Assembly (NCBI GenBank): GCA_002746975.1
Contig: NVXE01000004.1
Location: forward strand, 8,187-72,186
Length of the DNA stretch: 64,000 nt
Direction: 5' to 3'
Source of the DNA: Bacteroidota bacterium
GTDB lineage: Bacteria > Bacteroidota > Bacteroidia > Flavobacteriales_D > Sanyastnellaceae
The notes under the pieces are model-generated. The model ran no database searches and had not been told where the DNA came from. It was given only the letters and a program-made list of their open reading frames with translations. A program made the translations under genes and the position numbers. Positions 3,872 to 48,248 of the stretch are shown piece by piece (positions within the stretch are counted from its first letter, which is position 1; each line of letters begins with the position of its first letter).

Positions 3872-4786
3872 ATGGCTCGTACAACATTTGAGCAACTGCT
3901 CGACGCCGGATCACATTTCGGCCACCTAAAGCGTAAGTGGAACCCACACATGGCGCCTTACATCTTCACTGAGAAGAAAGGAATTCACATTATTGATTTG
4001 CACAAGAGTATCGTTAAAATTGACGAGTCTGCTGCTGCAATGAAGCAAATCGCTAAAAGCGGAAAGAAAATCCTTTTTGTTTCTACTAAGAAACAAGGAA
4101 AAGATATCGTTGCTGCACATGCGAAAGCTGTCGGAATGCCATACGTAACTGAGCGTTGGTCAGGAGGTATGCTTACGAACTTCGGTACTATTCGTAAAGC
4201 GATTCGTAAGATGACCCAAATCGATAAGATGGGCGCAGATGGAACACTTGCTATTCTTTCAAAGCGTGAGCGTCTGCAGGTTAGTCGTCAACGTGAGAAA
4301 TTAGACAAAGTTTTAGGTTCTATTGTTGATATGACTCGTCTCCCAGCAGCGATTTTTATTGTTGATGTGAGAAAAGAGCACATCGCTCTTGCTGAAGCAA
4401 AAAAACTTAAAATTCCTGTATTTGCTATTGTAGATACAAATAGCGATCCTCGTGGAGTTGATTTCATCATCCCTGCTAACGATGACGCTACAAAGTCTAT
4501 CGATTTAATTACTCGTACTCTTGCTGAGGCAGTTGCTGAAGGCTTGAACGAGCGTAAAGCTGATAAGGCTGAGTCTGATGCAAAAGCACAGCTCCGTGAG
4601 GATGCAAAAGTTGCTGCGAAAGCAGAGGCTGAAGCAAAGGCAAAGGAGGAGGCTGCAGCAGCAACGACTGCTGACGACGCTGCAACTCCAGCAAAAGAAG
4701 GAGAGGAAAAGCCTAAGAGAGCTCGTAAGAAAGTTACTAAGGTTGAAGCGAAGGCTGACGCTAAGGCTGAGGAGAAGAAAGATTAA
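3872..4786 (+). CDS. rpsB: 30S ribosomal protein S2 (uS2) with long acidic/basic tail
   Basis: S2 binds late to the small subunit with S1. The 304-residue protein has the family core in residues 1-230 (FEQLLDAGSHFGHLKRKWNP at the start, RWSGGMLTNFGTIRKAI near 95, DTNSDPRGVDFIIPANDDA near 190). A low-complexity extension of about 70 residues, rich in Ala, Glu and Lys and ending AEEKKD, follows. Ordinary S2 proteins are about 230-260 residues; such tails are common in Flavobacteriia. The ATG at 3872 gives the normal N-terminus. tsf follows after 33 bases. Confidence 0.97.
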   Translation: MARTTFEQLLDAGSHFGHLKRKWNPHMAPYIFTEKKGIHIIDLHKSIVKIDESAAAMKQIAKSGKKILFVSTKKQGKDIVAAHAKAVGMPYVTERWSGGMLTNFGTIRKAIRKMTQIDKMGADGTLAILSKRERLQVSRQREKLDKVLGSIVDMTRLPAAIFIVDVRKEHIALAEAKKLKIPVFAIVDTNSDPRGVDFIIPANDDATKSIDLITRTLAEAVAEGLNERKADKAESDAKAQLREDAKVAAKAEAEAKAKEEAAAATTADDAATPAKEGEEKPKRARKKVTKVEAKADAKAEEKKD

Positions 4787-17078: not shown

Positions 17079-18869
17079 CTAATCTAACTTTAGAATAGCG
17101 AGGAATGCTGATTGCGGGACCTCAACGGTACCAATTTGGCGCATACGTTTTTTACCTTTTTTCTGCTTTTCGAGAAGCTTTCTCTTTCGAGTGATGTCTC
17201 CTCCGTAACATTTGGCGGTAACGTCTTTACGAACGGCGCTTATCGTTTCGCGTGCGATAATTTTAGCCCCGATTGCAGCCTGTAGGGCTACCATAAATTG
17301 TTGGCGCGGGATAAGTTCCTTAAGCTTGAGACAGATACGTTTCCCGAAGTCATGTGCGTGATCTCTATGTATAAGGGCAGAGAGAGCATCTACTTGGTCT
17401 CCGTTGAGAAGAATGTCGAGTTTTACGAGGTCAGACTCTTTATATCCGTCGGGGAAGTAGTCGAAAGAAGCATAACCCCTGGAGATACTTTTGAGTTTGT
17501 CATAGAAATCAAAAACGATTTCACCGAGAGGCATACTGAAAGTTAACTCAACACGGTCCGCAGTTAGGTAAACCTGACTCACAAGCTCCCCACGTTTCTG
17601 TATGCAAAGGCTCATAACGGGGCCGATGTAATCGGATTTAGTAATGATTTGGGCTTTAATAAACGGCTCTTCAACCATTACCAAACCTTTATTTTCCGGC
17701 AAATCCGAGGGATTGTTAATGACTTGGGTGATTCCGTTAGGGAGATGGGCTATGTAGCTCACGTTAGGTACAGTAGTAATTACTGTCATGTTAAACTCTC
17801 TTTCGAGTCTTTCCTGAACGATTTCCATGTGAAGCATTCCGAGGAATCCACAACGAAAACCAAACCCTAGAGCGGCTGATGATTCGGGTTCGAATACTAA
17901 AGAGGCGTCATTAAGTTGAAGCTTTTCCATTGAAAACCTAAGCTCTTCGTAGTCCTCAGTATCGACAGGATAAAGTCCTGAGAAAACCATGGGTTTTACA
18001 TCCTCAAAGCCTGTTACGGCTTCCGTACAAGAGTTTTCCACTGTTGTTAACGTGTCTCCCACTTTAACTTCCTTAGCGTCTTTAATTCCAGAAATAATAT
18101 ATCCGACATCTCCGGCAGCAAGGGTGTTTTTAGGGATTAAATCGAGACCTAAAACTCCTATTTCGTCAGCGATATATTCTTTATCTGTAGAGAGTAGTTT
18201 TACCTTGTCTCTTCGATTAAGAGTTCCGTTATTTACTCTGAAATAAGCGATAATTCCACGAAAGCTGTTAAACACAGAATCGAAAATCATAGCTTGAAAT
18301 GGAGCGTCGATATCTCCCTTAGGAGAAGGCACTCTTTCAACAACGGCTTTCAAAATCGCTTCTACTCCTAATCCAGACTTTCCCGAAGCGGGAATGATGT
18401 CAGACTCTTCGCAACCGATAAGGTCTATGATCTGATCGCCCACAACTTCCGGGTCTGCAGAATCGAGATCCATTTTGTTGAGAACGGGAATGATTTCGAG
18501 GTCGTGCTCTAGTGCGAGATAGAGGTTAGAAATGGTTTGGGCTTCAATACCCTGAGTTGCATCCACAATCAACAAAGCTCCTTCACAAGCGGCAATGGAA
18601 CGACTCACTTCGTACGAAAAGTCAACGTGACCAGGAGTGTCAATCAGATTCAAAATGTACTGCTCACCATCTGTGTGAGTGTAAGTCATTTGAATAGCGT
18701 GACTTTTAATAGTGATACCACGCTCACGCTCAAGATCCATATCATCAAGGGTTTGTTCCTGAAGCTGGCGTTCAGTGATAGTGCCAGTTTCCTGTAGGAG
18801 TCTGTCCGCTAGAGTACTCTTCCCATGATCAATATGGGCGATAATACAGAAGTTTCTAATGCGTTTCAT
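17079..18869 (-). CDS. lepA: Elongation factor 4 (back-translocase)
   Basis: This is a membrane-associated GTPase acting on ribosomes under ionic stress or during initiation. The 596-residue protein starts [19 protein letters not shown] with the G1 motif near residues 11-18, then DTPGHVDF (G3) and NKMDLDSAD (G4). It has the LepA-specific C-terminal domain ending near [24 protein letters not shown] nine codons upstream is possible, but the family N-terminus matches the ATG at 18869. A TATTTTTG box lies 39-46 bases upstream of the ATG. Confidence 0.97.
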
Positions 18870-28586: not shown

Positions 28587-29387
28587 TTAAAAAAGAAGTG
28601 CGATAAGGCCTACCACCAAGCAATAAACGGCAAACCACATCAAGTTAGTACCTTTCACTAACTTGATCATCCACTTACAAGCGGCCCAACCAGCAACAAA
28701 TGCTGCTACAACCCCTATTGAATATCCAAAAAAGGGGATATGTGAATTATTCACAACAGTTTCAGATTCCATAAGGTCTTTCATCTCTAAAAGGTTAGCA
28801 CCTATGATGGGAGGCAGTGCCATCAGGAAACTAAATTTTGCCGCTTCAGCTCTTGAGATTCCAAGTAATAATGCGGCACCGATAGTGCTTCCTGACCTAC
28901 TAATTCCAGGAAGGATAGCGAACGCTTGGGCAATTCCCACAAGAGACGCTTTCACAGGGGTAAGCTCTTTTTTTGAAGCCTTACTTTTCTGTGATATAGC
29001 TAGTATTCCAGCAGTTACGATAAGCATAGCACCGACAAATTGGGTTGATGCTAACTCTTCAATGAAGTCTTTCATAGTGAGGCCTATTATTGCAGCTGGC
29101 ACAGCACTAAGAGCGATAAGGCCTATGTATCTACGAGACGACCCCCCCTCGACGCCTTTTTTAAAAAAGCCAAGGATTAATGACGCAATGTCCTTCCGGA
29201 ATACTACAATCGTACTCAACGCTGTAGCACCATGAACTAATACGGCGAAGGTTAAGTCCTCTTCGGGTAATTCTAAAATAGAAGCCCCTAGAGTTAGATG
29301 ACCGGAACTTGAAACGGGTAAAAACTCTGTTATTCCCTGAACAAGACCTAAAATTAGATAAGATAATACCTCCCTAATAGCGCTCAT
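28587..29387 (-). CDS. uppP: Undecaprenyl-diphosphatase
   Basis: This integral membrane enzyme dephosphorylates undecaprenyl diphosphate, recycling the lipid carrier for peptidoglycan and surface polysaccharides. The 266-residue protein carries the two family signatures, GITEFLPVSSSGHLTL near residues 19-34 and LPGISRSGSTIGAALL near 158-173, and about eight membrane helices. Its start overlaps the DUF3098 stop by four bases. Relatives confer bacitracin resistance when overproduced (BacA). Confidence 0.96.
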   Translation of the reverse strand: MSAIREVLSYLILGLVQGITEFLPVSSSGHLTLGASILELPEEDLTFAVLVHGATALSTIVVFRKDIASLILGFFKKGVEGGSSRRYIGLIALSAVPAAIIGLTMKDFIEELASTQFVGAMLIVTAGILAISQKSKASKKELTPVKASLVGIAQAFAILPGISRSGSTIGAALLLGISRAEAAKFSFLMALPPIIGANLLEMKDLMESETVVNNSHIPFFGYSIGVVAAFVAGWAACKWMIKLVKGTNLMWFAVYCLVVGLIALLF

Positions 29388-45451: not shown

Positions 45452-46447
45452 TTATTTAACTCCGAAAATCTCCCTTTTAACCCATCCTTTACCCCAATCC
45501 TCAAGCTCTTGCTCGCTCCACAGCTCGGGGAAGAAAATGCGCTTTTGGAAGCGAGGAGGTAAGTACTTCTGCCAGTTCGTACCACCAGAGGCTGCTATAT
45601 CTTCTGGATCACGTTGTAGATACCTGACGGCAGATTTGTAGTGTACAAGCGTCCAGTTAATATTTACGTTAACATCAAGCCAACGCATTGCCTGCTTGAG
45701 TTCTTCTTTTATATCTGATTGATCATCAGAAAACACGAGATTTGCAGCTGCAGACCTTACGTTAGAAGTGTAAGATTGGCGAGCAAGTTCTAGAAGCTCT
45801 TCATCGTACTTTTTCTCAAACTGTTTAAGAGTTAAAGTTTTAAGCCCACTTTTTAGTTCAGACGCCCCTTCTCGCCAATATAAATGGTTGAACACTTGAG
45901 GAATATCATCTAATGTGTAGTTACTAAAAACTTCTCTGTGATTTTTATGGGCAACACGATCTAACGAAGTGCAACAAATTTCAATCTTTCGATACTGAGC
46001 ACTTTGAAACCCACTAGCAGGGAGAAGGGACATCCTGAACTTCAAGAATTCACCATGATCCATACCGTCAACCATAATATCGAAACTGTTTGTAAGAGCC
46101 TCGAAATATCTATTTATCCTACGTATTCGCTCCAGAAGTAGCTCTGGAGTAATATTAGAATTTGCTATAGCCTCAGAAATACGATCAAATTCATGAAGTG
46201 ATAGCTTGAAATATAGCTCAGTAATCTGATGATATATTATGAAAACCTTTTCGTCGGGATATGGCGTTATAGGCTGTTGAAGGCTTAAAAGAGTATCGAG
46301 ATTTATATAGTCCCAATAGGTCAAAAAATCTGCATATAGCAAGCCGTCTAAGTAGGATGATAAATCCTGCCCCATAGCGGAATACTTTTTCTGTAGAGCC
46401 TCGAGTTTCTCTAAAATCTCTGGCGTAAAATTGTTAGTTGTATGCAT
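45452..46447 (-). CDS. kynA: Tryptophan 2,3-dioxygenase
   Basis: This heme enzyme opens the indole ring of tryptophan to N-formylkynurenine, the first step of the kynurenine pathway. The 331-residue protein has LTYWDYINLDTLLSLQQP near residues 42-59 and the signature IYHQITELYFKLSLHE near 70-85. The distal His lies in the first motif region and the heme-ligand His region near DVNVNINWTLVHYKSA. The start MHTTNNFTPEI gives the usual N-terminus; an upstream ATG at 46468 adds seven residues. It is downstream of a RidA-family deaminase, which fits tryptophan breakdown. Confidence 0.93.
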   Translation of the reverse strand: MHTTNNFTPEILEKLEALQKKYSAMGQDLSSYLDGLLYADFLTYWDYINLDTLLSLQQPITPYPDEKVFIIYHQITELYFKLSLHEFDRISEAIANSNITPELLLERIRRINRYFEALTNSFDIMVDGMDHGEFLKFRMSLLPASGFQSAQYRKIEICCTSLDRVAHKNHREVFSNYTLDDIPQVFNHLYWREGASELKSGLKTLTLKQFEKKYDEELLELARQSYTSNVRSAAANLVFSDDQSDIKEELKQAMRWLDVNVNINWTLVHYKSAVRYLQRDPEDIAASGGTNWQKYLPPRFQKRIFFPELWSEQELEDWGKGWVKREIFGVK

Positions 46448-46495
46448 GAGCGTAAGTTCGGAATTCACTATTAATTAATGGCAAAAACAGGCTAC

Positions 46496-46933
46496 TTATT
46501 GTACAGTTGCTGTACATTTTAATTCGATTGCTATAGGAGTAGGAAGGCAATTTATCTCAACAGTCGTTCTGCAGGGGCGATTTTCGCCGAGGTGAGCAAA
46601 ATAGTCAGCATAAACTCTATTGAAAGTTTCGAAGTCTCGAGACATGTTAACTAGAAAAACGGTAATGTCTACAAGCTCCTCCCATGAACTCCCACTAGCT
46701 TCTAAAATAGATTTTACATTTGCAAAAACTGCGTGAACCTGTTTTTCAAAATCGAATTTTAACACCTTTCCCTCAGGTGATATCTCAAGTCCAGGGACAA
46801 CAAGATCCTTATCCCCAGAACCGGCAACTCTAGGTCCTACTCCACTTAGAAATAATAAATTCCCTACGCGTCTTGCATGAGGGTAAGAACCGACCGGCTT
46901 CGGTGCAGAAGATGTTGAAATGCTCTCATTCAT
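46496..46933 (-). CDS. RidA-family protein, likely 2-aminomuconate deaminase
   Basis: RidA proteins hydrolyse enamine/imine intermediates. This 145-residue member has APKPVGSYPHARRVGNLLFLSG near residues 10-31, FLSGVGPR, and RTTVEINCLPTPIAIELKC near the end with the conserved Arg and the active-site Glu/Cys region. The YPHARRVG...GVGPR pattern is that of 2-aminomuconate deaminases, which act late in the kynurenine/aminophenol pathways. Location next to tryptophan 2,3-dioxygenase supports that. The other pathway enzymes are not in the window. Its ATG is 12 bases from a TACCTTAG box, and the gap to pepP is only 25 bases. Confidence 0.85.
   Translation of the reverse strand: MNESISTSSAPKPVGSYPHARRVGNLLFLSGVGPRVAGSGDKDLVVPGLEISPEGKVLKFDFEKQVHAVFANVKSILEASGSSWEELVDITVFLVNMSRDFETFNRVYADYFAHLGENRPCRTTVEINCLPTPIAIELKCTATVQ
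46500..46516. repeat. Perfect inverted repeat at the end of the RidA gene
   Basis: TGTACAG-TTG-CTGTACA is a perfect 7+3+7 dyad covering the last codons of the RidA gene, about 50 bases upstream of the kynA start. It could be an operator or an RNA hairpin between the two genes. No run of T follows on the minus strand, so it is not a typical terminator. Confidence 0.5.
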
Positions 46934-46958
46934 AGGACTAAGGTAGTACCTTGCGGCT
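46934..46958. promoter_or_regulatory. Back-to-back leaderless promoters of RidA and pepP
   Basis: The whole 25-base gap between the two divergent start codons consists of two -7 boxes and their 12-base approach to each ATG. They are TACCTTAG (minus, 46945-46938) and TACCTTGC (plus, 46947-46954). The boxes form the near-centre palindrome AAGGTA-G-TACCTT. Any -33 elements would have to lie inside the opposite gene, and two polymerases could not occupy the site at once. Confidence 0.6.
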
Positions 46959-48248
46959 ATGCGTTACGAAAAATTACCCTCTGCGTTATACACACGCAAT
47001 AGACAAGCACTAGCTGAACGGTTGGAATCGAAAGGATTAGCTCTGATTTTCTCTAATGATATTTATCCTACAAGTGCTGATGGTACACTTCCATTTAAGC
47101 AAGCAACAGATATATTCTATTTATGCGGAGTAGATCAAGAAGAAACTATTTTACTTCTTTTCCCGCAAGCTCATTCGGAGATGGATAGGGAGATTTTGTT
47201 TACTATTGAGACGAGTGAAGAGCTTGCGATTTGGCATGGAGCAAAACTCACGAAAGAGGAGGCTAGGCAGCAAACGGGGATAAAGAATGTTCAGTGGCTT
47301 GACGCTTTCGATAGCACACTGCACAGACTTATGGCTGAAGCAGAGGTTTTATATCTTAACGACAACCCTCATACTAGAGCGAGTACGCCAGTCGAAACTC
47401 GAGAAATGAGAGAAAACACAAGAATTAGATCGGCATACCCTAACCACAGGGTAGCTCGAACGGCTCCAGATCTTTATTCTCTTAGAGCGATAAAGCAAGA
47501 GCAGGAAATAATCCAAATGCAAAGGGCTTGTGATATAACAAAGGCAGGACTTGACAGAGTACTTTCTTTCGTTAAGCCAGGTGTTACAGAATTCGAAATT
47601 GAAGCGGAGTTTATGCATGAATTCCTACGTCGCGGGTCTCGTGGATTTGCATATACACCGATAATAGGATCAGGACCTAACGCTTGCGTACTTCATTATA
47701 TCGAAAACGATAAAGAGTGCAAGGCGGGGGATGTGATTTTGATGGACGTGGGAGCAGAATACGGCAACTACGCTGCCGATATGACACGTTGCATACCAGT
47801 AAGTGGAAGGTTCACCGATAGGCAACGAGCAGTCTACAATTCTGTATACTCTGTGATGCAAGATGCAATGAAGTTGCTTCGTCCAGGAGTGAGTTTGCAT
47901 GATTATCACAGAGAAGTGGGAGAGCTGATGACACGCCAACTTATAGATCTCAAACTAATTGACAAGCACGATGTTGAAAAGCAATCAGCAGCCTCGCCAG
48001 CCTACAAAAAATACTTTATGCACGGAACCTCACACTTTATAGGTCTTGACGTGCACGATGTTGGCCATTGGCATAAGGATATCGAAGCAGGTAATGTCTT
48101 CACTTGTGAACCTGGAATATATATTCCTGAGGAGGGACTTGGAATTCGCTTAGAAAACGACATTTTAATCACGAACGAGGGCTTTGTGGACTTAATGGCT
48201 CACATCCCTTTAGAGGCAGAAGCCATTGAGGAAGGGATGAATAATTAG
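46959..48248 (+). CDS. pepP: Xaa-Pro aminopeptidase (aminopeptidase P)
   Basis: This dimanganese M24B peptidase removes N-terminal residues preceding proline. The 429-residue protein has the N-terminal domain with NDIYPTSADGTLPFKQATD near residues 30-48. The metal ligands are visible in DVGAEYGNYAADMTRC near 262-277, HGTSHFIGLDVHDVG near 355-369, and the EPGIYIPEEGLGIRLEND region near 386-404. Length is normal. It is divergent from RidA with a 25-base gap. Confidence 0.95.
   Translation: MRYEKLPSALYTRNRQALAERLESKGLALIFSNDIYPTSADGTLPFKQATDIFYLCGVDQEETILLLFPQAHSEMDREILFTIETSEELAIWHGAKLTKEEARQQTGIKNVQWLDAFDSTLHRLMAEAEVLYLNDNPHTRASTPVETREMRENTRIRSAYPNHRVARTAPDLYSLRAIKQEQEIIQMQRACDITKAGLDRVLSFVKPGVTEFEIEAEFMHEFLRRGSRGFAYTPIIGSGPNACVLHYIENDKECKAGDVILMDVGAEYGNYAADMTRCIPVSGRFTDRQRAVYNSVYSVMQDAMKLLRPGVSLHDYHREVGELMTRQLIDLKLIDKHDVEKQSAASPAYKKYFMHGTSHFIGLDVHDVGHWHKDIEAGNVFTCEPGIYIPEEGLGIRLENDILITNEGFVDLMAHIPLEAEAIEEGMNN

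Follow-up and report, generated by a model that had tools for sequence, protein, structure and literature searches.

In E. coli, bidirectional promoters are built from overlapping −10 elements, and common distances between their start sites are 10, 18 and 23 bp (PMC12825309). The promoters of F. johnsoniae carry a −7 box, TAHHTTTG, with its T at −12 and its G at −5 from the start site, G being almost absent at −10 and −9 and the −33 motif weak (PMC6847099). Leaderless genes, lastly, were found in one of 37 Bacteroidetes/Chlorobi genomes, at 2.4% (PMC3160421).

Here we analyse a divergent gene pair, ridA and pepP, within a 64,000-nucleotide stretch of a Bacteroidota genome (“the window”). The arrangement of the pair would be a new variant form of bidirectional promoter. 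Judged from sequence comparison, the gap between the genes very probably holds two complete core promoters that are independent of each other, of the housekeeping type of Bacteroidota, standing back to back and both leaderless.

The ridA/pepP gap and its two −7 boxes

The two genes diverge from start codons at 46933 (minus strand, ridA) and 46959 (plus strand, pepP; Table 1). The preliminary description had taken both starts to agree with their protein families, and both are sound: on either side there are no in-frame starts between the upstream stop and the ATG, the PepP residues M1-R2-Y3 are invariant in an alignment of 11 proteins with identity down to 61%, and the alignment of the ridA orthologues of the genus begins at residue 1. 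The matches of the Rid-family protein include 2-aminomuconate deaminase 6izh, and a tryptophan 2,3-dioxygenase-like gene, whose score is under the model's curated cut-off, adjoins the Rid-family gene downstream (both within window positions 45452–46933). Because of this match and this neighbour a role in the kynurenine pathway is possible, and the product may be a kynurenine-pathway Rid protein paired with the dioxygenase-like gene.

Table 1. Features of the ridA/pepP locus, in window coordinates
Feature	Position	Strand	Remarks
Intergenic gap, both core promoters	46934..46958	.	25 bp, AGGACTAAGGTAGTACCTTGCGGCT; equal length in 10 same-genus genomes
ridA −7 box TACCTTAG	46938..46945	−	T at −12 from ATG
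pepP −7 box TACCTTGC	46947..46954	+	T at −12 from ATG; SM5 type TAnnTTGY fits too
Palindrome AAGGTA-G-TACCTT	46940..46952	.	Perfect in 5/10 same-genus 25-bp gaps
Predicted start site of ridA mRNA (A of ATG)	46933	−	From T−12 spacing in F. johnsoniae (PMC6847099)
Predicted start site of pepP mRNA (A of ATG)	46959	+	From T−12 spacing in F. johnsoniae (PMC6847099)
ridA-family gene	46496..46933	−	145 aa, PF01042; possibly 2-aminomuconate deaminase
pepP, M24 Xaa-Pro aminopeptidase	46959..48248	+	429 aa
pepP 5′ codons, synonymous sites nearly invariant in genus	46959..47003	+	Possible upstream contacts of ridA promoter

On each strand a TACCTTNN element opens 12 bases ahead of its own ATG, a geometry that the preliminary description had reported and that is read directly from the coordinates. 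The two boxes do not overlap and are separated by the single base 46946. By their letters both fit the Bacteroidota sigma-A −7 box (T−12 A−11 .. T−8 T−7. G−5), and both have the features of members of that class: the ridA box agrees with a TAHHTTTG-type box except at −6, and the pepP box agrees in TA and TT but not in the final TG, where it has GC. Orthologous ridA and pepP boxes end variously in TTCG, TTAG, TTTG or TTGC. The same profile emerges from 47 genes with a −12 box at positions outside the selection, with G in none of the 47 at −9 and in 64% at −5, and T in 47% at −6. A standard sigma-70 scan gave no match at the gap. A −33 element TTTG was found neither for pepP nor across the 47-gene set; this element is weak in F. 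johnsoniae as well (PMC6847099). The missing −33 element of pepP and the GC at the end of its box speak against the promoter reading.

With the T of each box at −12 from the ATG, the spacing known from F. johnsoniae places the predicted start at the A of the ATG, and therefore both mRNAs should be leaderless. Transcription would begin at this A or 1–2 nt off it on either strand, so that, as the preliminary description held, there is no room for leaders; the predicted starts are 26 bp apart. The promoter box some 12 bases ahead of the start codon that marks leaderless genes is found at both genes and at their orthologues. Against the leaderless reading counts that most transcripts of the related flavobacteria examined to date have leaders. 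Each promoter would amount to just about a −7 box of the TAHHTTNG type beginning 12 bases ahead of the start codon, and any contacts upstream of it fall in the opposite gene, again in line with the preliminary description.

The pepP box could also be read as SM5 type, and the two genes might then depend on different sigma factors, ridA on sigma-A and pepP on the SM5 factor, with the pair switching between conditions. Indeed, in all 12 same-genus genomes read, the pepP box is TACCTTGC or TAACTTGC, with G at −6 and a pyrimidine at −5, and in F. psychrophilum the functions under SM5 promoters include amino-acid scavenging (PMC9723704), to which a peptidase would be suited. In other genera, however, pepP shows TACCTTCG, TATCTTCG or TATCTTAG and ridA can carry TAACTTGC; the box types thus swap between the genes across genera and are interchangeable. 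As TTGY is moreover present in only 5 of the 33 sampled −12 boxes, we regard separate sigma factors as unlikely.

Abutting boxes are unlikely to be occupied together, and for steric reasons RNA polymerase would bind the gap in a single orientation at any time. This could make the gap a regulatory switch, in which polymerase bound one way silences the other gene, and the preliminary description had gone as far as to see mutually exclusive firing implied. In E. coli, a bidirectional promoter that is strongly activated on one side can indeed be repressed on the opposite side, but five such promoters showed zero competition at basal activity, even though they exclude binding of two polymerases at once (PMC12825309). 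Single occupancy thus does not entail mutually exclusive expression, because the E. coli promoters do without basal competition, and at ordinary initiation rates ridA and pepP need not interfere. Given also that the spacing of the boxes varies between genera, a switch is decidedly improbable. We know of no functional reason for an opposition of ridA and pepP.

Conservation of boxes, gap and palindrome

The pair is found with a 25-bp gap in ten same-genus genomes and with a 34-bp gap in two more. In other genera the gap measures 34, 52 or 58 bp, with 48 bp in L086 and 45 bp in L090/G073. At every linked gap (25, 34, 45, 48, 52 and 58 bp) a box stands at −12 of both ATGs, and this presence in every closely linked relative supports the back-to-back promoters proposed earlier. 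A variable gap with unrelated sequence in relatives had been named beforehand as evidence to the contrary; the length does vary outside the genus (34–58 bp) and is mostly constant within it, but the boxes are kept. Where the genes have come apart, the pepP gene of L016, L017 and L020 retains its −12 box with ridA not found nearby or 831 bp distant, and the ridA gene of L020 likewise retains its own. The boxes thus keep the distance to their own ATG while the gap varies or the genes are unlinked, which argues that the two promoters are independent.

Across the ten genomes with the 25-bp gap, variation is confined to columns −1 to −4 and −6 on the ridA side and −10 and −4 on the pepP side, whereas the TA and TT cores do not vary (P about 0.04 by column counting, relatedness ignored). 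In more distant relatives (e.g. L021, L023 and L024) the pepP box lies 23–26 bases upstream, as it would if the transcript carried a short leader. This displacement also bears on the idea that the −12 motif is a translation signal inside a longer leader and no promoter at all, which would account for its fixed position relative to the start codon; against it stand the displacement and the full −7 box profile, including the absence of G at −9, and we consider it very improbable.

The palindrome, presented in the preliminary description as a feature of the gap, did not hold up as one. It is imperfect in 5 of the 10 same-genus 25-bp gaps, with TAACTT on the pepP side, and absent at the longer gaps. 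Since it is perfect in only half of the ten, the palindrome itself is not maintained, and it is best read as a by-product of the two boxes. That it serves as an operator for a regulator common to both genes, with the promoters elsewhere, is hardly credible and was rejected: the inverted repeat is perfect, 6-1-6 and centred in the gap, but its half-sites differ in half of the ten same-genus genomes, stand at least nine further bases apart elsewhere with their own-ATG distances kept, and recur as identical single copies at −12 in front of many unrelated genes. Another near-copy of the palindrome, at 28642–28654, was ruled out as a related element by its position inside a coding gene (ORF 28587–29387).

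In the ten same-genus genomes the first ~15 codons of pepP (46959–47003) are near-invariant at synonymous sites, compared with ~11% invariant third positions in the remaining gene. Possible causes are upstream contacts of the ridA promoter and, if the pepP mRNA is leaderless, constraint on its 5′ end. The conservation of 5′ codons is on average higher in genes with a −12 box than in those without (0.61 versus 0.48, from only 8 genes); some genes without the box outrank pepP, and the ridA side shows little conservation. Two further genes whose longest ATG lacks a −12 box, 17082–18869 (minus strand) and 3872–4786 (plus strand), have first-14-codon identities of 0.92 and 0.93 versus 0.44 and 0.50 among the same-genus genomes.

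−12 boxes and close divergent pairs in the genome and the family

The frequency of such boxes was determined in a 464-kb sample of the same genome (327 ORFs), complemented by pattern counts over the whole genome (2.39 Mb, 14 contigs). In the sample, TANNTT is found at −12 in 33 of the 327 ORFs versus 3.8 per other position (Poisson P about 5e-20), and TANNTTNG in 21 ORFs versus 1.3 elsewhere. The pattern TANNTTNG-N4-ATG occurs 198 times in the whole genome versus 86 times in the reversed control, and 9867 versus 5109 times in the genomes sampled from the family. For the rest of the order, all families combined, the figures are 6248 versus 5675, family f9 and some individual genomes being partly enriched. 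In f9, the genus g29 (G044, G094 and G098) has both −12 boxes and paired boxes in excess, a habit that may have arisen there independently.

The paired pattern CAT-N6-AANNTA-N(0-30)-TANNTT-N6-ATG was found at 12 places in this genome versus none in the reversed control. About nine of these places are divergent gene pairs with gaps of 24–50 bp, and at three (L056, L058 and L059) at least one of the two flanks carries no real gene. The divergent pairs include nrnA-like/DUF6702-like (24 bp), def/ribBA (31 bp), ahcY/phosphopantetheinyl transferase (37 bp) and holA-like/restriction-type protein (50 bp), the names having been assigned by inspecting translations and not by family search. Boxes can be packed even more closely. 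At pyrE/NUDIX hydrolase the gap is 22 bp and the boxes share their central TA (G000:C10:49869–49896, L184:1570–1597; seven same-genus genomes), and boxes sharing TA across a 22-bp gap also occur in genus g3, at the nrnA-like pair, and in G005, at a yaaA-like/secreted-protein pair. The ridA/pepP gap had been called about the minimum possible, a claim contradicted by the 24-bp and the 22-bp shared-TA pairs of the same genome. In G016, era and tgt (C49, L187:1627–1657) are separated by a 25-bp gap with TACCTTTG on both strands, the same geometry with different genes.

Across the family, the paired motif occurs 252 times versus 12 in the control in seven genera, although some of the g1 counts are one orthologous pair repeated, and 36 versus 17 times in the remainder. 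Genus g29 of another family shows 16 versus 4, and the remaining genomes of the order 65 versus 72, close to chance. On these counts the ridA/pepP design is real but ordinary for its clade, recurring and conserved. Its 25-bp spacing and its palindrome would arise since such boxes pack closely, and the family packs many divergent genes in this way.

We lean towards the view that the family, whose members are Flavobacteriales-like, has shifted a sizeable share of its genes to leaderless promoters that are nearly −7 boxes only. Hence divergent conserved genes (ridA/pepP, pyrE/NUDIX, nrnA-like/DUF6702-like, era/tgt, def/ribBA and others) would stand in gaps of 22–54 bp with their boxes abutting or shared, and the choice of direction by the polymerase may couple some of the pairs. 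Few leaderless mRNAs have been reported in Bacteroidota, whereas a −12 box precedes about 10% of the genes sampled here. Translation in Bacteroidota proceeds largely without Shine-Dalgarno sequences, and a clade rich in predicted leaderless genes that are marked by the −12 box would be a good test of how ribosomes start without a leader. The abutting and shared-box pairs, in turn, are natural test cases for interference between opposed promoters.

Comparison with described promoters

A non-exhaustive literature search returned no description of leaderless bidirectional promoters or of abundant leaderless genes in this group. Like the bidirectional promoters of prokaryotes (Warman, Grainger; PMC12825309), the ridA/pepP gap combines divergent starts from a short stretch, an opposing symmetry of boxes and, as predicted here, binding of a single polymerase. 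It differs from them in that its boxes abut, its starts would be 26 bp apart, its boxes are of the Bacteroidota −7 type and its mRNAs are predicted to be leaderless. In the promoters of Warman and Grainger the starts flank or lie within a shared −10 element; ridA/pepP has no such shared element, whereas the pyrE/NUDIX pair shares TA. The 22-bp class of the same genome would put the starts 23 bp apart, a common spacing in E. coli.

With the sigma-A promoters of F. johnsoniae and F. psychrophilum the locus has in common the −7 box, the avoidance of G at −9 and a −33 element that is weak or missing (PMC6847099, PMC9723704). In contrast to what is predicted for this clade, those species are mostly leadered, with leaders of more than 10 nt at 87% and 5.5% leaderless (PMC6847099, PMC9723704). 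The leaderless genes of Actinobacteria and Deinococcus-Thermus resemble ridA and pepP in having a promoter box ~12 bp before the start codon, but their box is TANNNT (PMC3160421).
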